From positions 1 to 33,383 of the forward strand of contig JAHENZ010000185.1 in the NCBI GenBank assembly GCA_018609755.1: DNA of 33,383 nt. The letters run 5' to 3'. The position numbers were made by a program, and so were the translations under genes. This document shows, piece by piece, positions 3,695 through 33,383 of the stretch. Each line of letters opens with the position of its first letter. The stretch's first letter is position 1. Source of the stretch: Salinivenus sp. (GTDB lineage Bacteria; Bacteroidota; Rhodothermia; Rhodothermales; Salinibacteraceae). Under the pieces are notes generated by a model that was not told the origin of the DNA, ran no database searches, and was given only the letters and a program-made list of their open reading frames with translations.

Positions 3695-4306
3695 ATGAGT
3701 ATCACATTTCCTGTTGACCAAGTCACACCTCTTACGCGGGATCGAGTGCGGTTCGAACCGCTCCAGATGGAGAACATCCACACTCATTTTCAATGGAATA
3801 ATGACGCAGAACTAAACCGGCTCGACAGTGAGCTTCCGTACGAGGAGGAGTCGTTTGGAACCTTCAAGAAGCGATTTGAACGGCTCTGCACGGAGCCTTC
3901 GAACAGCCACCGTCATTTTGAAATTCACAGCCGGGAAGACGAGGAGTTGATCGGGGTGGCGTTCGCGATCCGCATCAGCGAGCACAATCGGCACGCCCTC
4001 GTCGGCATCACCATTGGGGAGCGTGAGTACTGGGGCCAGGGGTATGGGAAAGAATCCCTCCGGTTACTGCTGGAGTATTGCTTTGAGGCGCTGGACCTGC
4101 ACCGCGTAAGCGCAGAGACGTTCGAGTATAACACGACCTGGCGCGACTTGGTGGAGGGGCTGGGGTTTCGAAAGGAGGGAACCGCGCGGGACTATTTGTA
4201 CCGCGATGGTCAGTTCTGGGACAAAGAGATGTATGCTGTGTTGGAAGACGAGTACGCCGAGCGGATCGGTTCCTCACGTGAGGAGCCTCTGGAGACTGCG
4301 GCGTAG
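3695..4306 (+). CDS. GNAT-family N-acetyltransferase (RimJ/RimL type)
   Basis: A 203-residue acetyl-CoA-dependent N-acyltransferase. The acetyl-CoA-binding motif A is clear (GEREYWGQGYGKESL, Q/R-x2-G-x-G/A core), followed by the helix with EYCFEALDLHRV and the motif-B segment NTTWRDLVEGLGFRKEG seen in the RimJ/RimL subgroup (acetyltransf_3). The residues after the last motif (DYLYRDGQFWDKEMYAVL) also match that subgroup. The substrate cannot be told from the sequence: ribosomal-protein N-termini, amino-sugars and drugs are all known substrates of the subgroup. It stands alone 128 bp after menE. A TTGACA lies at 3610-3615, but I see no -10 element at a proper distance. Confidence 0.8.
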   Translation: MSITFPVDQVTPLTRDRVRFEPLQMENIHTHFQWNNDAELNRLDSELPYEEESFGTFKKRFERLCTEPSNSHRHFEIHSREDEELIGVAFAIRISEHNRHALVGITIGEREYWGQGYGKESLRLLLEYCFEALDLHRVSAETFEYNTTWRDLVEGLGFRKEGTARDYLYRDGQFWDKEMYAVLEDEYAERIGSSREEPLETAA

Positions 4307-4369
4307 CCGATTAGTACTGCGTCGACGACGAATTTCCCGGTAGGTCCAATTCAGGAAAGCGAACCGTTC

Positions 4370-4400
4370 TGTAGCGTCGTTGGACTCCAACGACGCTACA
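4370..4400. repeat. Perfect 15-bp inverted repeat between convergent genes
   Basis: The arms 4370-4384 (TGTAGCGTCGTTGGA) and 4386-4400 are exact reverse complements separated by one base. The element sits between the convergent acetyltransferase and PP2C genes, so it could end transcription from both sides. It lacks a T-run on either strand, and such a long arm with almost no loop could also be a binding site or a mobile palindromic repeat. I see nothing else recognisable in the 269-bp gap 4307-4575. Confidence 0.75.
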
Positions 4401-4575
4401 CAGGGGATATTGGCCTTTGCAGGAGACGAAAATCCAGTGCTACGGTGTGTCGCTCCTGCGGTTAAAGTCGCAAAGTCGCGCTCCAACGGCGCTTGGGGTG
4501 TGTCGTAGAAATCGACAAACGTGTGCGCGGCGTGGAGTGACTATTTATGCCGAAATATTAGCGGGGGACATAGCA

Positions 4576-5688
4576 TTAGGCGTCCCGCTGGAGCCACACA
4601 ATTAATATGTCGTCTTGAAAGTCGTCCTCGTTACTGCGATCGAGAGCGGCGTCCTGTAGCGCTTCCAGAGGGGCATCACTGCCGTAGGCGTCGGCCGTAA
4701 CCTCCAGCACGCCCTCCTCACCCAGCATGTCCCCGTTTGTCGTCGGGAGCTCCATCAGGCCATCCGTGTACGCGACGAGAGCCGTATTGGGGGAAAGGTC
4801 GAGCGTGGCGTCTGAAAAAGACGCGCTGGCCTCCAACCCGAGGATGAGGTCGCTGTGTTCGACGATTTCCGGTCCCTCCTCCGTAAGAAGGACCGGGCGG
4901 CAGTGGCCGGCATTCGCATAGGTTAGCGTATGGGCCTCAGGGTCCCAGTGCATGAGTAGGAAAGAGGCGAAGGTATCCTCCAGCACCTCATCATCGAGGA
5001 GCATGTCGTTGATGTGCTTCATCACCGCTGCGGGGGAGGACGATTCCTGCAGGAGCGTATGGAGGGTTCCCCGGACGTAGCTGAGAAAGCTGTAGGCGTA
5101 AAATTTTGCACGCAGGCCTTTCCCCATCACGTCCCCGATGGTGAGAAAGTACGAGCCCTCGTCCGTCTCCGTCCAGTCAAACAGATCGCCTCCGCCTTGT
5201 TCGTGTGCCTCCGAGTGGAAATGGAACTGATACCCATCGACCGAGGGGACACTGTCCGGGAGGAGGCGGTTCGAAAAGTCACGTCCGATTTCCGCATCGA
5301 GTTGCGACTGAAACATCTCCACCCGCTCCAGTAGGCGTTCGACACGAGAGAGCAGCTGCTCCATGTCGAAGGGCTTCGTGATGTAATCGTCCACCCCCGT
5401 GCGTGCCCCTTCCTGACGCGCGGGCTCGTCGGCCCGAGCCGTCAGGAAGATGAAGGGGATCACCCGTGTGTTTTTATCGGCCTGGAGGGCCGACTGGAGG
5501 GCAAACCCATCCATCTTCGGCATCATGATGTCCGAGATGATGAGATCGGGGATGCGATTGGCAATTTCCTGCAGGGCCTCTTCCCCGTTCGTCGCCGTGT
5601 AAACCTCGTAGTGCTTGCCGAGACGGTACTTCAGGAGCTCTCGAACCGTACTGTCGTCCTCAACAATTAAAATAGCATGCTCAGCCAT
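4576..5688 (-). CDS. Response regulator fused to PP2C/SpoIIE-type serine phosphatase (RsbU/RsbP-like)
   Basis: A cytosolic two-domain protein. Residues 1-125 are a receiver domain with the acidic pair E10-D11-D12, phosphoacceptor D53 (ISDIMMPKMDG) and K105 (ITKPF). After a helical linker, residues about 145-370 form a PP2C-type phosphatase of the SpoIIE/RsbU class, with metal-binding acidic motifs GGGDLFDW, GDVMGKG, YTDG and DDFQDD. The expected role is to dephosphorylate the neighbouring STAS protein when the receiver is phosphorylated, releasing the anti-sigma factor from its partner. The start overlaps the end of the upstream HATPase gene by 22 bp, implying translational coupling. A cognate histidine kinase is not in the window. 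The domain calls are firm; the output of the module is inferred. Confidence 0.9.
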   Translation of the reverse strand: MAEHAILIVEDDSTVRELLKYRLGKHYEVYTATNGEEALQEIANRIPDLIISDIMMPKMDGFALQSALQADKNTRVIPFIFLTARADEPARQEGARTGVDDYITKPFDMEQLLSRVERLLERVEMFQSQLDAEIGRDFSNRLLPDSVPSVDGYQFHFHSEAHEQGGGDLFDWTETDEGSYFLTIGDVMGKGLRAKFYAYSFLSYVRGTLHTLLQESSSPAAVMKHINDMLLDDEVLEDTFASFLLMHWDPEAHTLTYANAGHCRPVLLTEEGPEIVEHSDLILGLEASASFSDATLDLSPNTALVAYTDGLMELPTTNGDMLGEEGVLEVTADAYGSDAPLEALQDAALDRSNEDDFQDDILIVWLQRDA

Positions 5689-12659: not shown

Positions 12660-13691
12660 ATGATGGACGTCACGGTTCTGTATGGGGATCCCGAACTTCC
12701 GGATTCGGAGAAGGCCGACCGCCGCTTTACCCGGGAGGACCGAGAGGCCATCCGGCGAATGAAAGCGGCCCTATCGGCGTGTTCGGAATTGAACGTCCGT
12801 TATTTGGAGCGCCATACCGACCTCTTTTCCCGCCTGCAGTCGGATCCACCCTCGTTCGTCCTCAACTTCTGCGACACCGGCTACCGGAACGATCCCCGCA
12901 AGGAGTTGCACGTGCCGGCCCTTCTTGAGATGATGGATGTCCCCTACTCGGGCGCTGGCCCCGCCTGTTTGGGGCTCTGCTACGACAAGAGCACGGTGAG
13001 GGCGGTAGCACAGACCCACGGCGCGCCGGTCCCGGGGGAAATCTTCATTGGGGCCGACGTGGAGGCAATTCCTCTCCCGGACCGGTACCCGGCCTTCGTC
13101 AAACCCGCCACCGGGGATGGGAGCGTGGGGATCACGACCGACTCCGTGGTGCACTCGGCGGTCGAGGCCTGCAATTACGTCGAGCACCTTCGGCAGACTC
13201 TTCCGGGGCGCGACGTGCTGGTGCAGGAGTATCTCCAAGGGCCCGAGTATACGATTGAACTGGTGGGCAACCCCGGGCACGGGCTGGAGGCGCTTCCGCC
13301 CCTCGAGGTGGACTAAAGCGGCCTTGATTCCGAGCTTCCCCCCATACTGGCCTACGAGTCAAAGGCTGTTGCCGACTCGCCCTACTGGACGCAGATTACG
13401 TACCGAGGGGCGGACCTGGAATCCTCCCTCCGTGACACGCTGGAAACCCACGCCCGCTTTCTCTTTCGTCGTCTCGGCTGCCGCGACTACGCCCGCATCG
13501 ACTTCCGGTGCGACCAAGACGGGCATCCGTACCTTTTGGAAGTGAACCCCAACCCTGCCTGGTGTTGGGACGGGAAGATGAACATCATGGCGGGCTTCGG
13601 CGGGCGGGACTACAGCGAATTCCTACAGATGATTGTGGAGGCGGCTCGACGGCGCCTCGCCGGTCCGTCGTCCTCGGCCGACTCTGTCTAA
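12660..13691 (+). pseudogene. ATP-grasp ligase related to D-Ala-D-Ala ligase, interrupted by in-frame TAA
   Basis: The reading frame runs from ATG 12660 to a stop at 13689-13691 but is broken by TAA at 13314-13316, codon 219. Both sides are plainly coding and in the same frame. Before the stop are the central and ATP-binding parts of an ATP-grasp enzyme (AFVKPATGDGSVGI, VLVQEYLQGPEYTIEL). After it come PPILAYESKAVADSPY and the metal-binding end ARIDFRCDQDGHPYLLEVNP, with the E-x-N-P motif of Ddl-type ligases. In relatives this point is usually a Tyr in a VDYS-like motif, so a TAC/TAT-to-TAA change would explain it. The truncated 218-residue product would lack the Mg-binding motif. It overlaps the convergent hydrolase gene by 4 bp. 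The real substrate is unknown; the N-terminus differs enough that it is probably not the main cell-wall Ddl. Confidence 0.8.
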
Positions 13692-15718
13692 ACGTCGTCG
13701 CGCGGAATCGTCTCGTCCCACTCTCGCGTCTGGACGATCTCTTCGCCCTCCCGAGCCGTGAGTTCGGCCTCCAGCCGGAAGGTGTCGGCCGTGCAGGTAA
13801 GACGAGTTGAGAGCTCCAGTCGCACTGTCCAGTCGCCTCGGCGTAGAAGGCTCTGTTGCCGGATTTCTGTCTCTGCGCTACAAGGGGCGCCGTCGGTGAC
13901 GCGGAAGCTCTGTTCGATGCGGTACCCCACGTCGAGGTCAATGGCATCGAGGTGGGTGACGGCCCCATCGAATGCGTCGCCCTCACTCACGACCCGAGCT
14001 GTGGTGGTGCGGGTGGGGAGGTCGCGCTCCGTGGTGCGCGTGAACTGGGCCGGGCGCAGCGTGGCGGTCTCCAGCGCCGGGGCCGTCTCCGGCGCGTCGA
14101 ACGGGCGCAGTGCCTCGTCGTCGGCCCGGGGCGGGCGTTCCGGCAGGTCGAGGGTGCTGCTGCCGGTGTAGACGGAGAGGGTCGTGGGCGTTGGAGCAGG
14201 CCAGGCCAGCGGCCAGTAGCTCGTTGAGATCGCCACTCGCAGGCGGTGCCCCGCGGGAATCGATTGTGCGCAATCGTTGAGTTGAATACGCACACGGGTC
14301 CGCTCGTCCGGCGTCATCGGCTCCGGGTCTTCGTGGCTTTTCCGGTGGGACAGGTTGACCAGGCCGTAGGTCAAGCGAGCGGAGGCCCCGTCCGGAAAGA
14401 CCTCGCAGAGCCGCACCGCAACCATCCCAGCTGGGTGATCGGCGGCAACGTCGAGCTCCACCACGGGGGCTCCGAGCAGTTCCAAGTCGTCCGTCAGCGG
14501 TGCCGAGTCGAACGTAAGGGACTGCCCGTCGTCGGACCGCTGGTCCCCAGGCAACTCGCCGTCCGCCCCGAAGGCGCACCAGACGCCGCTCTGCCCACCC
14601 GTCGTGAGGGGCGAGCGGATCGATCGCTCGGTGGTTGGTTCCGGCTCCCGCCCAAGCCCGTCAGCGTTCAGGTGGAGGCGGCGCGTCTCGACGGTCGGGG
14701 AGGGCCAGGTCGGTTCGGCCACCCACCGGCCGGGACGCGTTTTGTACTGCGGGCGGGGGCGCACCGACTCCTGCATCCACACGCGGTACGTGGGCTCGTC
14801 CATAATTCCGGTGTCCCGTCCCTTGAGCCAGTGGTCCCACCACCGAATGGCCTCCTGCAAAAATCCAATCGACGGCCCCGGTCGGCTGTCATGGGGAAAG
14901 GCGTGCGACCAGGGACCCACCAGGCCCTTCCGGGGGCCTGACAGGCCTGCCAGTAGGCGCGGCACGGCGTTCGAATAGCCGTCGGCCCAGCCGCCGACGG
15001 CGTACACCGGGCAGTCGATAGCGTCGTAGTCCTCACAGACCGACCCATGACGCCAGAACTCATCGCGCCGTTGATGGCGGAGCCACTCGGCCGGGTAGCA
15101 CTTAAGGGCGTCGAGTCGTTCGAGCCACATGTCGCGCCATCGGTCCCCCACGAGGTCGGGGTCGGGGGGATAGGCGGCGAACATCGTGAAGATTGAGCCC
15201 CAGATCTGGTTCTCGTTCAGGAGACAGCCGCCCATGTAGTGGGCGTCGTCGGCGTAGCGGTCGTCCGTGGAGCAGAGCGTGAGAATTGCCTTCAGGGCCG
15301 GTGGGCGGCGGGCAGCGAGCTGCAGCGCATTGAAGCCTCCCCACGAGATGCCGGTCATCCCGACGTCGCCCGTGCACCAGGGCTGCTCGGCAAGCCATGC
15401 GATCACGGCTTCCCCGTCGGCGAGCTCCTGCTCGGTGTACTCGCCGGTAAGGACGCCCTCGGACTCGCCGGTGCCCCGCAGGTCGACGCGGACAGTGGCG
15501 TACCCGTGACCTGCGACGTATGGATGCATGCGTTCGTCCCGACCACGAGTGAAGTCCCGCTTGCGGTAGGGAATGTACTCAAGAATTGCCGGCACGGGAT
15601 TTTCCTCGGCGTCCGTCGGGCGCCACATGCGGGCGGCCAGGCGGGTACCGTCCGGCAGTGGAATCCAAGTGTGTTCGATTGCCTGAATGGAGCGCGGATA
15701 CTCGTTGATAATGGTCAA
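13688..15718 (-). CDS. CocE/NonD (S15)-family alpha/beta hydrolase, X-Pro dipeptidyl-peptidase-like
   Basis: A serine hydrolase with the family's three parts: an alpha/beta-hydrolase domain (about 15-140 and 235-340), an inserted helical region and a C-terminal jelly-roll (about 360-600). With TTG 15718 as start (676 aa), the catalytic triad is S125 (GISWGG), D246 (GGWADG) and H272 (GPWSHAFPHD). The N-terminal signature WIPLPDGTRLAARMWRP and the RVDLRGTGESEG strand-loop are typical. Members cleave X-Pro dipeptides, cocaine-type esters or glutaryl-cephalosporins; no signal peptide is seen, so it is likely cytoplasmic. An in-frame ATG at 15823 exists but would overlap the upstream gene by 95 bp; the TTG lies 10 bp after that gene's stop. 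The last ~70 residues are less typical. Confidence 0.85.
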   Translation of the reverse strand: MTIINEYPRSIQAIEHTWIPLPDGTRLAARMWRPTDAEENPVPAILEYIPYRKRDFTRGRDERMHPYVAGHGYATVRVDLRGTGESEGVLTGEYTEQELADGEAVIAWLAEQPWCTGDVGMTGISWGGFNALQLAARRPPALKAILTLCSTDDRYADDAHYMGGCLLNENQIWGSIFTMFAAYPPDPDLVGDRWRDMWLERLDALKCYPAEWLRHQRRDEFWRHGSVCEDYDAIDCPVYAVGGWADGYSNAVPRLLAGLSGPRKGLVGPWSHAFPHDSRPGPSIGFLQEAIRWWDHWLKGRDTGIMDEPTYRVWMQESVRPRPQYKTRPGRWVAEPTWPSPTVETRRLHLNADGLGREPEPTTERSIRSPLTTGGQSGVWCAFGADGELPGDQRSDDGQSLTFDSAPLTDDLELLGAPVVELDVAADHPAGMVAVRLCEVFPDGASARLTYGLVNLSHRKSHEDPEPMTPDERTRVRIQLNDCAQSIPAGHRLRVAISTSYWPLAWPAPTPTTLSVYTGSSTLDLPERPPRADDEALRPFDAPETAPALETATLRPAQFTRTTERDLPTRTTTARVVSEGDAFDGAVTHLDAIDLDVGYRIEQSFRVTDGAPCSAETEIRQQSLLRRGDWTVRLELSTRLTCTADTFRLEAELTAREGEEIVQTREWDETIPRDDV

Positions 15719-15728
15719 GGGCAGGGGG

Positions 15729-16676
15729 CTACGAGAGATGACTGATGGGGGCCTGCGGCGTGTGTCCCTCCCGCGCGGCGACGAAAAGATCGGCGAGGTT
15801 CTGGCGGGCGTGCAGGCCGGCATCGAGGTCCCAGCAGTTCACGATCCCGAGCCGGAAGCCGCCCGGCGGCATCGCGTGAAGGCCAGCGTCGCGGTCCTCG
15901 TGGAACGTAATCTGTACGCTCGAGATCTCCGGGCGCTCGGTGAGAGCACGCACCTTGGCCCGGTCCACCGGGGCGTACCGCATGCCGTGGCCCCCGAACA
16001 GGACGACACTGTAGCCCGTCCGCCGGTCGGCATCGGCGTACTCCCACGTGCCGTCGGCGTAGAGCTGGACGAGGGCCTCAAGCCAGCCATCGCCGTAGAG
16101 ATCGGGCCACTGATCCGCGAAGCGCAGGTGGGCCTCGATGATGGTGCCGCCGATGGTCTCCACGTTGAAGGCCCCGGTGTACCCCGATAGATGCTTTCGG
16201 GTCCAGTTGCCGAGGGTCTGTTCAAGGCTGGGCCGCGATTCGGCCTCGATCGTCCAGTAGTTGAACGTACCGCCGCCCATCTCCAGCCCCACGGTGTGCC
16301 GCCACCATTTCGGCACGCCGTCGACGAGCACCCCGTCGGTACTTACGTGCTCGCCGGTCATCATCGGCATCCACATGTAGCCCGGCTGCTGTATGCGCTC
16401 AAATTCTTCCTTCGACGTGACGACCTGTCCCCCCGTCCCCATGCCGCGCAGGTTCATAATCGGCTTACTAAAGACCGGGTACGTGTCCGGGACGATGCCG
16501 TGCGGGGCACAGTCCAAATCCTGCGACTCAGCAACCTGCAGTTTCGAGTAGATCCAGCGATGCTGTGGGTAGCGGCGGTACGCCAGCTCGTCGTCGGTCG
16601 GAATGACGACGTCATCTGGGCACGCGACGTGCTCAAAGTACTGTTGACGCCACGGATCTTTTTCAACGATGGGCAT
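15729..16676 (-). CDS. Divergent ATP-grasp-like protein of unknown substrate
   Basis: A 315-residue cytoplasmic protein, not a member of any enzyme family I can name. Several stretches look like an ATP-grasp fold: YPVFSKPIMNLRGMGTGG (a candidate ATP-binding Lys plus Gly-rich loop), MWMPMMTGEHVSTDGVLVDG (central strand) and GGTIIEAHLRFADQWPDLYG, which is placed like the metal-binding E-x-N motif but reads E-x-H-x-R. It starts with ATG and ends 10 bp before the S15-type hydrolase, so the two are probably co-transcribed. With the broken ATP-grasp ligase beyond the hydrolase, the context hints at making and cleaving a small peptide or amide. That is inference; the fold itself is moderately supported. 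Confidence 0.5.
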   Translation of the reverse strand: MPIVEKDPWRQQYFEHVACPDDVVIPTDDELAYRRYPQHRWIYSKLQVAESQDLDCAPHGIVPDTYPVFSKPIMNLRGMGTGGQVVTSKEEFERIQQPGYMWMPMMTGEHVSTDGVLVDGVPKWWRHTVGLEMGGGTFNYWTIEAESRPSLEQTLGNWTRKHLSGYTGAFNVETIGGTIIEAHLRFADQWPDLYGDGWLEALVQLYADGTWEYADADRRTGYSVVLFGGHGMRYAPVDRAKVRALTERPEISSVQITFHEDRDAGLHAMPPGGFRLGIVNCWDLDAGLHARQNLADLFVAAREGHTPQAPISHLS

Positions 16677-24645: not shown

Positions 24646-26571
24646 TCAGGCGTTTGCTGGAATCCGAAGGACCATCGCGAGCTTAGCATCTGCCGTCAAG
24701 ACCCGATCGGGGGGACGAAGACGGACGGCCAGAACCTCTTGGTTCGGAAGGTCCACGTCCGTGACGTGTTCGACGCGAACGGGCGGCGGCTCCTCTATCT
24801 TCTTGTTAGGGTCAGACGCATCCCGGTCGCGCACGTCATCCGGTTTCTCAGACGGAACGGTATCGGGGGCCAGAAAGGATTCCATTTGGGCGGCGACCGT
24901 TGCCTGCAGCTCCTCCAAAGGAGCGGTGAGATCCAGCTCGCGTTTCAGGGTGAATAGACGGTGAGCCACTCGGGTCAAAAACAGGCGGCAGGGAAGGGAG
25001 GCTTCCGTGCGGGCGTCGGCGGCGGCCGATGGGTCGTCGTAAACGCTCGGCTCGTGCACCGATGGTGCGTGCACGATGTGAATACTACCGTCATCGGTCT
25101 CGTCGAGAACGGTGAAGCCCGCCCGAGCCAACTCCGATTGCATGCTACCCGAAAACGGAGCCGAAAGACATTGTTTTCCCGGAGAATGAGAGGGCGACTG
25201 GATTTCGATCTGCTGTTGTGTCAGATGGGTGGCCCATCCGGTGTCAACGTAGCTCTGAGCGGCCGCTACTCCCACTGCGAGCGCCCCGCTTCCGAAGAGG
25301 CCCTCGTCCTCGTCAACGTCGAACGAGGTCGCTGAGGAATCTCCTCGATAAGGGGGGCGTAACTGCACCGACGGCAACGTAAGGCTCAGGAAGGAGGCGG
25401 ACTCTTCGGATCGAAGGCGCTCCCATTCGACGTACTCGTCGCCCTGCAACTGGGGGCGGAGGGACGGCAGCCGACTTAGCCCACGGACGTGTTCTGTCCC
25501 GAAAAAATCTGCTGCCACCGACGCCACGACCGGAGCTTGAAGGCTTTCCCCCGTTCCTGCGAGATCGGCCAATTGTTCGACGTCAACGTGTGAATGTCCA
25601 AACGCCTGGTCAACCATCACCAGAGACGTTGGAGGATCGTCGTTGGCTTCGTCGTGCTCGGGGAGCAGGACCTGATGGTGCAGGGCCTCGTGTAGATCGT
25701 CGCGATTTGCGGACAGCACCAACAGGTCTACGCCGCCGTCCAGGTCGATCTGCTTTTCCAGAAAATAAAGGCCTCGCCAGGCAGCCTCTAGCTGGCGAAA
25801 TTCCGGGTGCGTGAGCACTGCCTCCACCTGTGCCGCGAGCCGCTCGTCGAGTCGGGCAAGGATGCGGTCAGCCGCCACTTCGTCACTGACCGACGACGTT
25901 CTTTTCTCTGATGAGGACGGGGATTCTGAGGCAGGGGAGGCCCCGTCTTGCCCATTGGTTTCGACCATGTCCATGACCCTCCCGAGGGCATCGTCTCCTT
26001 CGCTCCGCGCAAGCGAAGAGGAGTCCGCTTCTGGGGCGGTTCCCTCAGGAACCTCTCCGTCCACGAGCAACTGATACAGATCGTCTGCCCAATCGACGTT
26101 CAAGTCGATGTCGTCAAGTTTTTCCTGGAATGTCGATGCGTCCATCGTCTCGTTTTGTACCGCCTGCACTAAGGAGCGGGCTTCGAGCAGACGGGCGGTC
26201 GGGTCCATCTGCTGCGCGATCTGCTTCGGGGAAAACGCCTCCCGCGTCGGAAAGGAAAGCGAGACTGTCCACGTGTCCGGATGGTCACTGAGCCGATTGG
26301 GCACCTCCACGGTGAGTTCCGGCCCGAGCTCGGCCATGAGGTCTGTCGCACTTTTCGGTCCGATGTGGTGACGGCGATCCTCTTTTGACCAGTCCGAGGG
26401 AGAGGCGTGGGGCGTGAGAGGACTCACGAACAAGAGGCGAAACGGGAGCGAGGCCTCAGCCGGAGGCGATTGGGATTCGTCGGCACGGCCGGTCGTAATT
26501 TCCATCCCAATGCGGGCACCGGTGGAATCGTCAGGGGACGGGTCAGTCTCTGAAGAAGGAGGGTTGTCCAT
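24646..26571 (-). CDS. Type VI secretion contractile sheath protein, fused TssB-TssC
   Basis: A 641-residue protein that appears to hold both T6SS sheath subunits in one chain. Residues about 42-140 follow TssB/VipA: LPFRLLFVSPLTP, then GPKSATDLMAELGPELTVEV and the SPKQIAQQMDPTARLLEARS helix. A Ser/Asp/Glu-rich linker runs to about 230. Residues about 232-641 follow TssC/VipB from end to end: RILARLDERLAAQVEAVL, HPEFRQLEAAWRGLYFL (255-271), VDLLVLSANRDDL, LTLPSVQLRPPYRG, CRLFLTRVAHRLFTLKREL and the last strands VRLRPPD...LAMVLRIPA. In usual T6SSs these are separate genes of about 160-180 and 490 codons; the total here matches their sum. The two DUF1795 genes directly upstream fit a T6SS. The chain is very acidic, like the rest of the window. 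Baseplate, Hcp and ClpV genes are not in view. Confidence 0.85.
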   Translation of the reverse strand: MDNPPSSETDPSPDDSTGARIGMEITTGRADESQSPPAEASLPFRLLFVSPLTPHASPSDWSKEDRRHHIGPKSATDLMAELGPELTVEVPNRLSDHPDTWTVSLSFPTREAFSPKQIAQQMDPTARLLEARSLVQAVQNETMDASTFQEKLDDIDLNVDWADDLYQLLVDGEVPEGTAPEADSSSLARSEGDDALGRVMDMVETNGQDGASPASESPSSSEKRTSSVSDEVAADRILARLDERLAAQVEAVLTHPEFRQLEAAWRGLYFLEKQIDLDGGVDLLVLSANRDDLHEALHHQVLLPEHDEANDDPPTSLVMVDQAFGHSHVDVEQLADLAGTGESLQAPVVASVAADFFGTEHVRGLSRLPSLRPQLQGDEYVEWERLRSEESASFLSLTLPSVQLRPPYRGDSSATSFDVDEDEGLFGSGALAVGVAAAQSYVDTGWATHLTQQQIEIQSPSHSPGKQCLSAPFSGSMQSELARAGFTVLDETDDGSIHIVHAPSVHEPSVYDDPSAAADARTEASLPCRLFLTRVAHRLFTLKRELDLTAPLEELQATVAAQMESFLAPDTVPSEKPDDVRDRDASDPNKKIEEPPPVRVEHVTDVDLPNQEVLAVRLRPPDRVLTADAKLAMVLRIPANA

Positions 26572-27877: not shown

Positions 27878-28634
27878 GATGGAACCTTCAGCGATGATAT
27901 TAGGGACGGAAGAAGAGGTGGGTACTCAGCCTATCAGTTTCAAAAGTGTATCCAGAGCAATGCGTTAAGTAAGTTTTTGTTTACTATCTGTGTTCCTAAA
28001 GTGGAGTTCCATAGGGGGCTTCTCAATTGGCACGTTGAAAGCGATCAAAGATCTGATCTGGGCCAGCTGGTCGACCGAGGCGCCCTGCCGGGCTGCATCC
28101 CGGTAGGCATTCGCCAGAAAGAAAAGGTGCAGGCCGTCGATGGCGATCGCATTTCGGCTCACCCGTCGCTGTCCGGCTTTGTACAGGTTGGCTTTCCGCC
28201 GGTGCTCGGTGACCTCGTCCATCTTCTTCCCGTATTCCTGAAGTCCGGCCTCGCGGCCCTGCATGGCCTGCTGGGCCTCTTTCCCGGTCTGCACGCGCTT
28301 TCCTTTCAATTTGAAGAGCTCGTCGGCCTTCTTGCCCGTGCCTACGTTGTCGTGGACGTACTGGGCGACCGCCCCGATGGCACTGCGGTGCGATCTGCCA
28401 CAGGGACGCTTCGTTCGAGTCGGGACCGGTGGTGCCGTGGAGCGGAGCGTCTCGGCTCGACCTCAAAAGCTCCGGGAAGAAGTACTTGATGGGGCCGGGC
28501 GGAACGTCGGAGAGCTCGGCGCGGCCCTCCGCATCGAGTGTCGTTTTTTGCTCGCTTCCGTCCGGAAGAATCACGACGACCGTCTCGTCCGCCACCGGCG
28601 CGTCGGTCACGAGGTCGCAGAGGCGAATGGTCAC

Positions 28635-28764
28635 GTCGTCCACGAACGTCGGGAGGCCCTTTTCCTTCGCGTCGGTTGAGTCTGACTGCACCCCCAGCAC
28701 GTCCACGGTATAGAAAAACCGCGGCTGCGCGTACCCCTCCGGCGCCTCCCACTCGGAGACGATG
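28635..28764 (-). repeat. Direct repeat B, copy 1 (130 bp)
   Basis: About 120 of 130 bases match 32906-33035 by eye. It encodes the EWEAPEGYAQPRFFYTVDV segment through FVDD. It lies only 25 bp from repeat A copy 1, whereas in the intact genes the two lie in different genes about 1.1 kb apart and in the opposite order. Confidence 0.88.
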
Positions 28765-28789
28765 GTGGCCACCTCGCTACTCCGTGCGA

Positions 28790-29003
28790 TGATGACCACC
28801 GGACACCGGTAGCCTTCGAGAAGCCAGTGAACGAGGCACCGGCGCGTCTGCTCGTTGGCCACTCCGCTTATCGGGCCGTCGTAGTACGTCAGAGATCCCT
28901 CTGGATTTTGGGTCCCCGACAGGCGTTCGACGTACTCGCCCTCGGCCTCCAGATCCTCCTGGGCCACCCGCCCCATCCCCGCGTAGATCTGAAATTCCCG
29001 CAC
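28790..29003 (-). repeat. Direct repeat A, copy 1 (214 bp)
   Basis: About 206 of 214 bases match 31547-31760 by eye, including an unbroken run of over 100. It encodes the end of a peptidoglycan-binding domain and the segment ending CPVVI. In this copy it opens the chimeric remnant. Confidence 0.9.
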
Positions 29004-29108
29004 TGAGTACTCAATATAAATTCCCCCTACGGTCTTGTTTCATTTGAACCAAAGTATTCGGGGAGCATATAGAAGCACGGTATATTTTTGAAGAACTGGT
29101 ACCGACTG

Positions 29109-30275
29109 ATGACGCTCGTGAATATGTTCTCATCTTCAGTTGGGCTTCCGAAAATACGAGCAGTGTTGCACCGACCGAAGGCGATTGTAACCGCTGGCTT
29201 ATTGGTGGCCGGAGCGTTCGGGTTTAGCACGTTCGGCTCCAACGAGACGCCCCCAGCCACCTTCGCCGCCGAACAGGACGAAAGGGTAGAGTCCACGGAC
29301 ACGTCCGATGAAGCGACGAACGCCGAGGATCGAACCGAGGTTGACTGTCCAGTCGGTTCAAAACGAGGAGACGCCACCATCCGGATCGACTCGACCAATC
29401 GAGAATGGACGATTACCACGATAAAGCCGGACTCCCAGTTCAAAGCTAAAGGAGAACACCTGCCGGTCGACTGGAACGAACTGGAATTGGTAAGTCGGGG
29501 AGACATAAATCGGGACGGCCGAATGGACGCGGTGGTAAAAATCCAATTTGATACTGCTCGCCCCGTTGGAGGACGGCATCACTGGGTGTTTGTCAGCTGT
29601 GGTAGAGACCGGTACGTATCGGTCACGCCGATCTTGAGGCTTGACCGAGATCATCTGCACCGTACGAGGAAGGTTGAGAAGCCGTGGCCCAATTTAACGG
29701 CGCTTGGAGAAGTGAGGAGGGCTAACCATCCGAAAGGGTACTACTATCGTCAGACATACCGGTATAACAAAGAAGAGGAGCGGTACCGCCCCGTATCGGG
29801 ATCGGCCCGATACAAAAAAGAGTCGGCTAAGCGACTTGGGATTAACCTCGACGATCGCCCCCAATGCTCCGTTGGAAAGGGGCCGCCGATTCGGATCCAG
29901 CCCACCGAGAAGACCAAACGCCCCCTCCAGCCCGGCGACAGCGTGCGAATCGAACCAACGTACCATCCAGAAAAGTCCTATGAGATAGAGTGGGCGGGTG
30001 ATTTGAATTACAACAAAAGAGATGACCTAGTGGTTGAGGTTGGCTGTGGTAGCGCGGACAGATGCAGACATGTTGTGTATTACAGATGCAGTACTGAACG
30101 TCACTGGTATTCTGTAATTTCAGAAGAAATACATGCAAAAGAAATAAATGTTGATGACGAAAATAAAAATGGATGGAGGAAAATCAGAAAAATAGGTAGT
30201 ATAAAAGAGAATGAGTACGTACTTGAATTTGGTTTTACTGGGTATACCCAGAAGAGCCTTTCACCAGTTGAATGA
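29109..30275 (+). CDS. Secreted protein with two Ca-binding-like repeats; candidate immunity protein
   Basis: The only plus-strand gene in the T6SS region. With ATG 29109 it has 388 residues (TTG 29088 would add seven). A hydrophobic segment (about residues 24-40) is a signal peptide or anchor, so the rest should be periplasmic. The mature part looks like an internal duplication: RGDINRDGRMDAVVKIQF with HHWVFVSC in the first half, AGDLNYNKRDDLVVEV with HVVYYRC in the second. The D-x-N-x-D-x-R-x-D pattern resembles FG-GAP or dockerin-like Ca loops. It lies tail to tail with the effector candidate, overlapping its 3' end by 15 bp. That pairing and the location suggest immunity to a cell-wall-cutting effector, but this is inference. 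The last ~90 codons are AT-rich with many AAA, ATA, AGA and AGG codons, unlike the neighbours. Confidence 0.55.
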   Translation: MTLVNMFSSSVGLPKIRAVLHRPKAIVTAGLLVAGAFGFSTFGSNETPPATFAAEQDERVESTDTSDEATNAEDRTEVDCPVGSKRGDATIRIDSTNREWTITTIKPDSQFKAKGEHLPVDWNELELVSRGDINRDGRMDAVVKIQFDTARPVGGRHHWVFVSCGRDRYVSVTPILRLDRDHLHRTRKVEKPWPNLTALGEVRRANHPKGYYYRQTYRYNKEEERYRPVSGSARYKKESAKRLGINLDDRPQCSVGKGPPIRIQPTEKTKRPLQPGDSVRIEPTYHPEKSYEIEWAGDLNYNKRDDLVVEVGCGSADRCRHVVYYRCSTERHWYSVISEEIHAKEINVDDENKNGWRKIRKIGSIKENEYVLEFGFTGYTQKSLSPVE

Positions 30276-32132
30276 GTCCCTGCGATTAAGGATGGGCTGA
30301 TCATCGATGCGAGCGAGCGTATCGCCGAGCCTGCCAGATACATCTCCTCCGACGTTATCAATCTGGGAGATTAGAGCGGACTCGTGATCATCAGTCCAAT
30401 AAATCGGATCGCAGGTCCATGAATTGCCTATTGCGTTTTGATCCACGTCGAGGTTGGGGACTTCTGCACGCGCATTTTCCAATACTGTTGTGAGGTTCGC
30501 GTCCTGACAAGGCCCACTCGTGTCAATGAATGAGCTAGGATGGAACACGTGCCATCGCACGAGCATTGCCACCGCTTTCTCAGAGGTAAACACGTCGCCA
30601 ATTGTGGTGTCGTCCGGCCAGTGCTCGAGAGGATTCTCCCACTGGACGCTCAGCACGTCTTCCACCCGCATCCGGGCATAGTCCCAGCAGGCCTCCTGGA
30701 ACGAATTCTCCATCTGTGGAAAGTGTTGGAGACGGGAGGCCATCAAGAACCGGTAGTACCAATGCCAATTCCGAAAGTAGTCCCACTCTCTGCTTGCTTC
30801 TTCCTCGGAAAATGGATCCTCCCCGGTTCTCATCGGCAGTAGCTCCATTCCGCCCGAGGTCTCTTTCTCGATCGAGGCCACGTACTTTTGCTGAGAGGTG
30901 AAAAGCGCCTCCCCGTTCTCCCCCCAGTCGGTGTCGACGTCAACCCCGAATTGTCCGAAGATGTACTCGTAGGTGTGTTCGTATTCGCTTTTCAGGTAGG
31001 ACAAAAACCCGCAAAGCTCTCCTTCTTGCACGGGGCGCTTGTCGTACCGGGGCATGGTCCAGTGGTACGGACCGGCCGAAAGAAGGGCTTCGTCGTACGC
31101 ATTAAGACTGTCGAGATGGCCGTTGCATTCAACCTGGCTGATGGCCTCTATGACGTTGTACATCGAGTTCTCTTCGGTCCCGAACAGCTCAGGGGTAATT
31201 TCCGTCGAGTCCCACGTCTGTCCCTCCTGTGATACCGTGCACGGCCCATACCATTCATTGCTCTCGTCCATTAGATAGTAGCCGAGCGTAATCCGATCCC
31301 CATACTCGTATTCCCCCTCGTCACTCCCAGCGATTTCGCTGGTAAGGTCTGTGCTTTCGTCATTCAGGAGTGCTCTATCCGAGCCAGGCTCTGAGGGGGC
31401 AAGAAAGTAGCCGGTGAAGTCATGGGCAAACATTCGACAAGCAGTCGTCTCAACGTCGTCGTGCCGCCAGAGATTTTCGGCGTCTGCTCCCTCGGCAATA
31501 GCGCCGCCGTCGTAGACGGACTCGTATCCGTCGCCGGTCCGAGCGGTGATGACCACCGGACACCGGTAGCCTTCGAGGAGCCAGTGAACGAGGCACCGGC
31601 GCGTCTGCTCGTTGGCCACTCCGCTTATCGGGCCGTCGTAGTACGTCAGAGATCCCTCTGGATTTTGGGTCCCCGACAGGCGCTCCACGTACTCGCCCTC
31701 GGCCTCCGGATTCTCCTGGGCCACCCGGCCCATCCCCGCATAGATCTGAAACTCCCGCACCGCCTGCTCGGTCCGGGGGCCGAACACCCCATCGAACTCC
31801 CGGATGAGGCCGAACCCCAGATTCCACAGGTCCAATTGAAGTTGAGTCACGTATCCGCCGAGGGAAACCGTCGGGGGCTGCTCCTCGGCCGGATCCACGA
31901 CAATGCCGGGAAGCACCACGTCTCCGTTGGCGAGTCCAATCTCCCGCCCCTCCTCCACGGGCGCCGAGGGCCAGGAGCCGTCCCAGTCGTTCCGGCGGAG
32001 CGTGTAGTTGCCGTACCGCCGGTAGAACGGAGCCTCCTCCGGGAGCAGGTCAACGGCGGCCTGCCCGGCCTCCGAAAAGCTCGTCTCAATCCAGGACTCG
32101 ATCGTCGGCTCGGATGAATTCGACGTAGACAT
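30261..32132 (-). CDS. Candidate T6SS effector: peptidoglycan-binding domain plus lysozyme-like region
   Basis: A 623-residue cytoplasmic-type protein without signal peptide. Residues 95-135 are a PG_binding_1 domain (VTQLQLDLWNLGF, FDGVFGPRTEQAVREFQ). The segment 155-196, part of repeat A, is shared with the remnant. From about 200 on I recognise no named family, but residues 326-360 read like the active region of a lysozyme-fold glycosidase: E335 in SQVECNGHLDSLNAYDEALL followed by SAGPYHWTM. Many Trp and Tyr residues follow (WDYFRNWHWYYRFLMASRL). Cell-wall cleavage after T6SS delivery is a reasonable guess; the T6SS genes nearby and the possible immunity gene at its 3' end support it. It begins 47 bp after the upstream gene, so it is probably in the same transcript. 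Confidence 0.55.
   Translation of the reverse strand: MSTSNSSEPTIESWIETSFSEAGQAAVDLLPEEAPFYRRYGNYTLRRNDWDGSWPSAPVEEGREIGLANGDVVLPGIVVDPAEEQPPTVSLGGYVTQLQLDLWNLGFGLIREFDGVFGPRTEQAVREFQIYAGMGRVAQENPEAEGEYVERLSGTQNPEGSLTYYDGPISGVANEQTRRCLVHWLLEGYRCPVVITARTGDGYESVYDGGAIAEGADAENLWRHDDVETTACRMFAHDFTGYFLAPSEPGSDRALLNDESTDLTSEIAGSDEGEYEYGDRITLGYYLMDESNEWYGPCTVSQEGQTWDSTEITPELFGTEENSMYNVIEAISQVECNGHLDSLNAYDEALLSAGPYHWTMPRYDKRPVQEGELCGFLSYLKSEYEHTYEYIFGQFGVDVDTDWGENGEALFTSQQKYVASIEKETSGGMELLPMRTGEDPFSEEEASREWDYFRNWHWYYRFLMASRLQHFPQMENSFQEACWDYARMRVEDVLSVQWENPLEHWPDDTTIGDVFTSEKAVAMLVRWHVFHPSSFIDTSGPCQDANLTTVLENARAEVPNLDVDQNAIGNSWTCDPIYWTDDHESALISQIDNVGGDVSGRLGDTLARIDDQPILNRRDSFNW
31547..31760 (-). repeat. 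Direct repeat A, copy 2 (214 bp)
   Basis: The intact-gene copy of repeat A, coding for residues 125-196 of the effector candidate. It has the same orientation as copy 1, about 2.76 kb away. Recombination between the copies would delete the plus-strand gene between them and the effector's C-terminal part. Confidence 0.9.
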
Positions 32133-32179
32133 GACAAAAGGAGTTTGAGAAGCAAAACAAATGAGAAGTGACCGGGGAC

Positions 32180-33383
32180 CTACGCGTCCCGAAACCGCAA
32201 TCCGTCGAGCATCGGGCGCTCCATGTCGGGGATCGTGCCGCTAACGGAGGTCCCCAGCTGCGCTTGCAACGACTGAACGGCCGCCGTCGACAGCGGGCCG
32301 GGGGCCCCGTCGACCGTTCCGCCGTACGAGCCGACTTGCGCGAGGCGCTGCTGCAGCCCGTCGTCGTCCTCGCCCGCCGAAAGATCCGTAAGGTCCAGCG
32401 GGATCGTCACGTCCCCACCCTCTGTCTTCAGCGTAAGCGCGGCGGCCACCGATCCCACGGGCACCGCCTGCTGCAGCCGTCCCTCAGTGCCTACTGTTCC
32501 GTCGAGCGTGGAGGTAGATCCGTCCTCGGTCTTGACCTTCAGCGTGTAGTCGGTCCCTGTCGGCTCCGCGCCGATGAGCCCGTGCTCTAAGTGGAGGTCG
32601 ATTTGGGGCGGCACGACGCAGATCGTCTCCTCGCCTCCAGTGGCCACCTCGGCGGTCGCTTCCAGCGTGTCCATCACGAGTCGTGTTGCGTCGTCGGGCG
32701 AAGGGGGGACCTCGGTCTCCGATTCGTTTGTCGAAGGGTCGTAGCTGGCCAGCCCGATCTGAACCGGGCCTGGCGGTACCCCTTGCATTTGGAGGCGCCC
32801 GTCCCCGGACGTCTGCTTTTCCTGGGTGGACCCGTCCGCAAAGGTGATTTCGACACTCTGGTTGGCCAGCGGCGCTTCATTCTCGTTCACAAACTGGAGC
32901 TCCAGGTCGTCCACGAACGTCAGGAGACCCTTTTCCTTCGCGTCGGTTGAGTCCGCCTGCACGCCCAACACGTCGACGGTATAGAAAAACCGCGGCTGGG
33001 CGTACCCCTCCGGCGCCTCCCACTCGGGAACGATGTCCTCGGTGTCCCCCGGGTACTGAAACTGATACATCACCTCCACGGCCGCATTCTCCACCCGCGG
33101 CCGCAGCCGAGTGACAGGTTTGTGGGCCTCCCCCCGCGGGGCCTCCTGAAAGATCCGCACGACGGCCCGCTCTCCGTCCGGCGCCCCGCGGGCCTCCGCC
33201 GAAAGCGTAAGAATGTCGCACCGCTGGACGGTCTCCTGCGACCACCGGGGGCCGGAGACCCGCACCGGATCGGTGATCCGAACCGCCTCCGACTCGGCCG
33301 AGAGGCCGTGGTTCGGCATGTTCACCTTCGCCAGCAGACCGCCTTTGGCCTCGGGGGGCACCCGGAGCTGGAGGTTCAGGTCC
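32180..33383 (-). CDS. T6SS-associated multidomain protein with C-terminal peptidoglycan-binding domain (5' end outside window)
   Basis: The frame is open through the right edge, so at least 401 residues are seen and the N-terminus is missing. The visible part begins with DLNLQLRVPPEAKGG and continues with a beta-rich region ending EWEAPEGYAQPRFFYTVDV, which includes repeat B. Then come two carboxypeptidase-regulatory-like units (ITFADGSTQEKQTSGDGRL with VPPGPV, and LKVKTEDGSTSTLDGTVG). The last ~55 residues form a PG_binding_1 domain (LQQRLAQVGSYGGTVDGAPG, STAAVQSLQAQLG). Proteins with this plan often lie beside vgrG or PAAR genes and may be effector carriers or spike-associated. It is probably co-transcribed with the effector candidate 47 bp downstream. 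The exact role cannot be told without its first part. Confidence 0.6.
   Translation of the reverse strand, partial: DLNLQLRVPPEAKGGLLAKVNMPNHGLSAESEAVRITDPVRVSGPRWSQETVQRCDILTLSAEARGAPDGERAVVRIFQEAPRGEAHKPVTRLRPRVENAAVEVMYQFQYPGDTEDIVPEWEAPEGYAQPRFFYTVDVLGVQADSTDAKEKGLLTFVDDLELQFVNENEAPLANQSVEITFADGSTQEKQTSGDGRLQMQGVPPGPVQIGLASYDPSTNESETEVPPSPDDATRLVMDTLEATAEVATGGEETICVVPPQIDLHLEHGLIGAEPTGTDYTLKVKTEDGSTSTLDGTVGTEGRLQQAVPVGSVAAALTLKTEGGDVTIPLDLTDLSAGEDDDGLQQRLAQVGSYGGTVDGAPGPLSTAAVQSLQAQLGTSVSGTIPDMERPMLDGLRFRDA
32906..33035 (-). repeat. Direct repeat B, copy 2 (130 bp)
   Basis: The copy of repeat B within the T6SS-associated gene that runs off the right end of the window. It has the same orientation as copy 1 and lies 4.27 kb from it. 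Confidence 0.88.

Follow-up and report, generated by a model that had tools for sequence, protein, structure and literature searches.

The question raised by contig JAHENZ010000185.1 of Salinivenus sp. (assembly GCA_018609755.1) is what three adjoining genes at positions 12660-16676 do together. The whole stretch of DNA analysed, 33,383 nucleotides in length, is referred to here as the window, and the three genes are referred to as LIG, S15 and HYP (Table 1). A preliminary description made from the letters of the sequence had listed an ATP-grasp ligase, an S15-type hydrolase and a 315-residue protein, all of which are present. The 315-residue protein, HYP, most likely represents a new family of carboxylate-amine ligase that depends on adenosine triphosphate (ATP) and acts in an undescribed pathway. 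In addition, we consider it fairly probable that a single undescribed small-molecule pathway employs both HYP and LIG as ATP-grasp ligases, with S15 as its hydrolase. HYP and S15 lie on the same strand, with 10 bases between the end of HYP and the likely S15 start, a TTG at 15718 that was chosen by alignment to relatives. S15 and LIG are convergent, the S15 stop codon at 13688-13690 overlapping that of LIG. This arrangement suggests that HYP and S15 form a single operon facing LIG in convergent orientation, and a scan of the locus for promoters and terminators gave no pattern exceeding shuffles.

Table 1. Features of the locus, with positions in the window, and loci at which LIG relatives are fused to a methyltransferase.
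Feature	Position or loci	Strand	Description
LIG	12660-13691	+	D-Ala-D-Ala-ligase-fold ATP-grasp ligase, broken by in-frame TAA
In-frame stop within LIG	13314-13316	+	Stop at the same place in 0/27 aligned relatives
S15	13688-15718	-	CocE/NonD-type alpha/beta hydrolase with PepX_C domain; open frame extends to 15823
HYP	15729-16676	-	315-residue ATP-grasp protein; E-x-H-x-R signature; family without Pfam or NCBIfam profile
Methyltransferase-LIG fusions	L118, L150-L154, L156-L158, L160-L162		

The sequence of HYP has no match in Pfam, NCBIfam or the PDB sequences up to E 1, and a profile of 37 rows finds no PDB sequence up to E 10. Its AlphaFold2 model, computed from 37 sequences (predicted local distance difference test, pLDDT, 88.7; predicted template modelling score 0.86), shows an ATP-grasp fold across residues 1-302 and superimposes on PurD (3lp8) with Z 20.6 and a root-mean-square deviation (rmsd) of 3.3 over 283 aligned residues, and on the L-amino-acid ligase 3vot with Z 19.5 (rmsd 3.7, 287 aligned). 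Foldseek places an L-amino-acid ligase and PylC at the head of its matches (E about 1e-12). The motif E-x-N is typical of ATP-grasp families, with Ser or Ala at the position of the Asn in PurK, PurT and PurP. In HYP, residues 181-185 read E-x-H-x-R, and in an alignment of 94 sequences (the window, 80 relatives from the contig scan described below and 13 from a genome sample) His replaces the Asn of this metal site in 94/94, which makes E-x-H-x-R a signature of the HYP family. K71, E173, H183 and R185 are each found in all 94 sequences, K45 in 93 and E181 in 91; from their motif positions we take K45, K71, E173 and E181 to be ATP-binding lysines and acidic metal ligands.

The preliminary description had called the 315-residue protein an ATP-grasp protein with E-x-H-x-R in place of E-x-N, and both the predicted model and the alignment bear this out; the lack of an ATP-grasp fold, named there as evidence that would overturn the idea, was not seen in the model. 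However, it had also called the protein degenerate, which does not agree with the four invariant residues, and as modelled HYP is a full-length ATP-grasp protein. Compared with the L-amino-acid ligases (BL00235, YwfE/BacD) and PylC, HYP has the same full-length fold and keeps lysines and glutamates at the motif positions, but it differs from them in its low identity of about 10-18%, in E-x-H-x-R as opposed to E-x-N and in the absence of any match among PDB sequences.

S15 exceeds the cut-offs of PF02129 and PF08530 and reaches 257 bits against TIGR00976 (CocE/NonD), for which the cut-off is 66.3. Every solved structure listed as a match at E 1e-10 is a cocaine esterase (13 sequences), and Ser125, Asp246 and His272 are invariant in 17/17 aligned sequences; by their position, compared with CocE, these residues presumably form the catalytic triad. 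Judged by its sequence, S15 is a CocE/NonD-type hydrolase. The proline-specific-peptidase type assigned earlier has to be replaced, as the best NCBIfam model of X-Pro dipeptidyl-peptidases gives 92.7 with a cut-off of 642. In contrast to cocaine esterase and other hydrolases of this type, S15 extends for about 155 residues beyond its PepX_C match and its gene adjoins an ATP-grasp gene.

The LIG frame is open for 218 codons ahead of the in-frame TAA and then for another 124, which are homologous to relatives, until the TAA at 13689-13691. Each half gives a match to the C-terminal domain of D-Ala-D-Ala ligase (24.7 and 41.1 bits, cut-off 24), and the predicted model of an intact relative (L008, pLDDT 91.0) has the D-Ala-D-Ala-ligase fold, with Z 30.6 and rmsd 2.2 over 296 residues. 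The family also keeps the ATP-grasp residues, the two ATP lysines and an N-x-N-P motif being invariant in 21/21 sequences and the Glu of E-x-N nearly so. It differs from the D-Ala-D-Ala and D-Ala-D-lactate ligases in scoring 44-107 bits against NF002378, below the cut-off of 243 (window halves 53.1 and 44.4, L008 79.1, two fused relatives 106.8 and 88.5), and in the motif N-P-A-W-x-x-D-G-K downstream of E-x-N, where Gly and an invariant Lys are aligned with the Ser-Arg of VanA. The second substrate of LIG is therefore probably a different one, and the change in the substrate motif, seen at the sequence level, argues against a D-Ala + D-Ala activity.

Twelve LIG genes in 11 sampled genomes carry an N-terminal fusion to an S-adenosylmethionine-dependent methyltransferase, which was recognised as Methyltransf_25 in the two tested (76.9 and 62.2 bits) and by homology in the others. 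The fused rows form one clade with a support of 85, or 99 without L118; L155, although marked as fused in the LIG tree, is not counted, as its 420-residue frame has no methyltransferase. A search of the 80 scan loci did not find this methyltransferase. In L118, the sole fusion with HYP alongside, HYP comes immediately after the fused gene. In a PADLOC search for anti-phage defence, the fusion gives a match to mad2 (E 1.1e-21) that spans residues 32-192, its methyltransferase part, and HYP, S15 and LIG are each without a match; a plasmid search found no HYP and, at E 1e-40, no methyltransferase-LIG. In a search of viral structures the best match is an uncharacterised Caudovirales protein (E 2.1e-12), the others being mostly general ATP-grasp proteins. 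Two candidate neighbours were rejected: a methylmalonyl-CoA mutase and an anion transporter (by eye) occur near methyltransferase-LIG in just two and three of 26 compared loci, and a penicillin amidase past HYP in L118 is separated from it by an opposite-strand frame that by eye resembles a dehydrogenase. Genes resembling D-Ala-D-Ala ligases, with 27-30% identity to LIG, were also observed in tandem pairs (G559:C204, G761:C207, G517:C49) in three genomes that carry HYP elsewhere. The cystargolide/belactosin pathway brings together a methyltransferase, an ATP-grasp ligase and a hydrolase to build a small peptide by way of a transient methyl ester (PMC11427300). The resemblance is drawn only as an analogy, and the methyltransferase considered here is fused to LIG in other genomes and stands outside the trio.

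Whether the three genes belong together can be judged from their relatives. A scan of genome contigs gave 223 HYP relatives, and the counts below refer to the best 80 of these 223, which lean to close relatives; a partner was counted when found within 1 kb (S15), 4.5 kb (LIG), 1.5 kb (EgtB) or 2.5 kb (EgtD) of HYP. LIG is near HYP in 28/80 loci and S15 in 40/80, and because of the latter the association of the trio is not due to chance. The usual gene order is HYP>S15> <LIG, with LIG on the strand opposite HYP in 28/28 loci and S15 opposite HYP in only two (L037, L065). Where an S15 locus has at least 3.6 kb downstream, LIG is also present in 24 of 29, and five HYP-S15 relatives have room yet no LIG nearby (L015, L023, L047, L061, L076). 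L081 has LIG without S15. The same order appears in records with a title or classification of Pseudomonadota, Myxococcota or Nitrospirota; the titles of HYP-relative records include Alpha-, Gamma- and Deltaproteobacteria, Nitrospirae and Chloroflexi, and a large share of these records are metagenome bins, which may be mislabelled. The grouping of the preliminary description is thus a recurring unit, and its statement that it knew of no described pathway with this set agrees with the literature searched by titles and abstract openings, a coverage mostly outside subscription papers, in which none describes the HYP/S15/LIG set. Other surroundings of HYP were seen as well: in a subgroup (L012, L020, L024, L031) it is flanked by 2-oxoacid-dehydrogenase-type genes on one side and by a zinc alcohol dehydrogenase and a DUF1499 gene on the other (annotated in L020 only), and in L120 a PIG-L family gene (3815-4585, minus strand) adjoins a strongly diverged HYP copy. 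PIG-L was rejected as a telling neighbour, as the one gene checked at the corresponding position of the similar L127 was no counterpart.

A drawn sample of 337 Alphaproteobacteria, for which the statistics ignore relatedness, contains HYP in 18 genomes, EgtD in 104 (94 above cut-off) and LIG in 16 (E 1e-40). S15 adjoins HYP in 5 of the 18 (G412, G430, G433, G484, G805), LIG without S15 is beside it in 2 (G435, G526), Egt genes in 3 (G538, G656, G749), and none of these in 8. LIG occurs in 5/18 HYP genomes and in 11/319 others (p 0.0007), and the difference holds when only the centre genome G430 is left out (4/17, p 0.004).

ATP-grasp ligases turn a carboxylate into an acyl phosphate, which is then transferred to an amine. 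On the established points, namely the predicted folds, the conserved catalytic residues and the gene order recurring across records of several phyla, we infer that both ligases form amides and that the three proteins act in a single pathway; the substrates and the order of steps are proposed on the same footing. HYP and LIG would each bind ATP between the small domain and the core and phosphorylate a carboxylate using ATP and Mg2+, after which attack by an amine would give the amide. HYP would employ Glu173, Glu181 and His183 where most ATP-grasp enzymes have E-x-N. S15 would be expected to cleave an ester or amide belonging to this pathway, either trimming an intermediate or recycling the product. 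In the window genome, with its broken LIG, the pathway might run on HYP and S15 alone or be decaying, or the stop might be a sequencing error.

Several observations weigh against this proposal. In 40/80 of the best relatives no S15 lies within 1 kb of HYP, and in 13/18 sampled HYP genomes none is beside it, so that the outcome which the preliminary description had named as refuting, the genes lying apart in most relatives, is half the case: S15 is close to HYP in one half of the scan loci and not in the other, and it is not next to HYP in most of the alphaproteobacterial HYP genomes. HYP is missing from 11 of the 16 LIG genomes of the sample, and without the five HYP genomes that were already in the contig scan (G412, G430, G433, G435, G452) the co-occurrence of HYP and LIG falls to 2/13 (p 0.087). 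The profiles of HYP and LIG are only weakly similar (probability 4.7%), and the kinship of HYP therefore rests on fold and motif, a fold that is found also in carboxylases and other enzymes. It is conceivable that HYP is an ATP-grasp protein with another kind of chemistry, like that of a carboxylase or a kinase, or acts as a non-catalytic regulator, and that its neighbours reflect shared regulation rather than one pathway. The folds nearest to its model include PurD, PurK and biotin carboxylase besides the peptide ligases, the His of E-x-H-x-R is unusual, and 16/80 loci have neither S15 or LIG nor an Egt partner within the distances used, although one of them (L018) has S15 and LIG a few kb off, outside these distances. 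The invariant lysine, glutamate and arginine nevertheless favour catalysis, and the order HYP>S15> <LIG recurs in records of three phyla; we regard a different chemistry as quite improbable.

The second recurring neighbourhood of HYP consists of ergothioneine genes. EgtB is near HYP in 23/80 loci and EgtD in 22 of those, in divergent arrangements as well as EgtB-EgtD-HYP (L042, L045, L084) and HYP-EgtB-EgtD (L073); five of the proteins, from four loci, were named by NCBIfam above cut-off and the rest by tblastn. Both genes are also beside HYP in 3/13 further sampled loci. The two contexts were found together in 0 of the 80 loci: neither in the window nor at any locus with S15 or LIG near HYP is HYP adjacent to egtB/egtD. 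An EgtD match is present in 32/38 HYP genomes without S15 or LIG nearby (31 above cut-off), compared with 21/41 genomes with one of them near HYP (19 above cut-off), some of which are incomplete bins; this last count includes L081 and leaves out L032, which is the same genome as L027. In a HYP tree (quick method, midpoint root), from which L032 and L069 (short frame) were also omitted, the trio rows are divided between the two sides of the root, and all rows linked to Egt fall into one 30-row clade (support 96), which also contains rows with no recognised partner. When 40 trio sequences are compared with 26 Egt-linked ones, 107 positions have a residue that is shared by the two groups and reaches 90% or more in each, and just three (44, 66, 295) differ consistently, from which we infer, on sequence similarity, that HYP catalyses the same reaction in both contexts.

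This raises the alternative that HYP acts in histidine-betaine (ergothioneine) metabolism everywhere, either by linking hercynine or ergothioneine through its carboxylate to an amine or by supplying a peptide for EgtB, with LIG and S15 extending or trimming the conjugate. The number of neighbouring EgtB and EgtD genes in three arrangements, the frequency of EgtD in the HYP genomes without the trio partners and the small difference between the HYP proteins of the two contexts speak for it, the many invariant Trp and His residues of HYP would suit a quaternary ammonium group, and the window genome has an EgtD-family gene (L088 1489-2463, minus strand, C10; PF10017, 381 bits). Among the 13 HYP genomes not previously known, EgtD occurs in 8, compared with 96/319 others (p 0.028, uncorrected for relatedness and for the choice of subset), but over all 18 the enrichment is not significant (8/18, p 0.20). 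Moreover, 20 of the 41 genomes with the S15/LIG context lack an EgtD match, the window genome has no EgtB above cut-off (best 86.7, cut-off 360) and the egtB-egtD neighbourhood is limited to the one HYP clade. As the tests are small and uncorrected for relatedness, co-occurrence alone settles neither the trio pathway nor the ergothioneine alternative, which on balance appears doubtful. A more specific form of it seems to us unlikely: an unknown ergothioneine branch in which an E-x-H-x-R ATP-grasp enzyme ligates ergothioneine or hercynine to an amine, its gene adjoining egtB-egtD in some Alphaproteobacteria and, in several phyla, the genes of a hydrolase and a second ligase, with the members that lack egtD importing the thiol-betaine.

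Compatible with the preferred explanation of a two-ligase pathway is the view that the unit in the window is a decaying, horizontally acquired cluster whose ligase is already dead. HYP was found in 1/395 genomes of the phylum and LIG is interrupted. In addition, the glmS gene next to the trio is not followed by it in nine stretches from relatives, eight of the same genus and one of the same order (L166 extends about 3 kb beyond glmS, and L172, with less than 1 kb, is too short to tell). In all nine the match to the window ends with glmS, and therefore no insertion boundary can be drawn. GlmS shares 95% identity with its counterpart in a congener, which makes it unlikely that the contig is a contaminant. 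On the other side, the remainder of LIG is open and homologous and HYP and S15 are intact, so that either any loss happened recently or the stop comes from a sequencing error; the GC content at third codon positions of the three genes (0.78-0.83) is near that of glmS (0.79), and the five relatives mentioned above keep HYP and S15 without LIG despite having room for it. We regard a decaying import as possible, though less likely than not.

In either case, an enzyme family without a Pfam or NCBIfam profile occupies two recurring neighbourhoods, one of which consists of ergothioneine genes. Should ergothioneine or hercynine prove to be a substrate of HYP, there may be bacterial conjugates of this antioxidant, of which no report was found; if not, the trio still marks an unassigned, probably amide-forming pathway in such different bacteria as Nitrococcus, Oceanibacterium and the organism of the window. 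Cultured strains with intact copies allow both readings to be tested directly.

Elsewhere in the window, the two sheath domains of type VI secretion, VipA (61.9 bits) and VipB (129 bits), are combined in a single frame of 641 residues (24646-26571, minus strand). Further along the same strand, within 28023-33361, the frames 28023-29003, 30261-32132 and 32180-33361 share long stretches that are similar by eye, and the second of these contains a peptidoglycan-binding domain.

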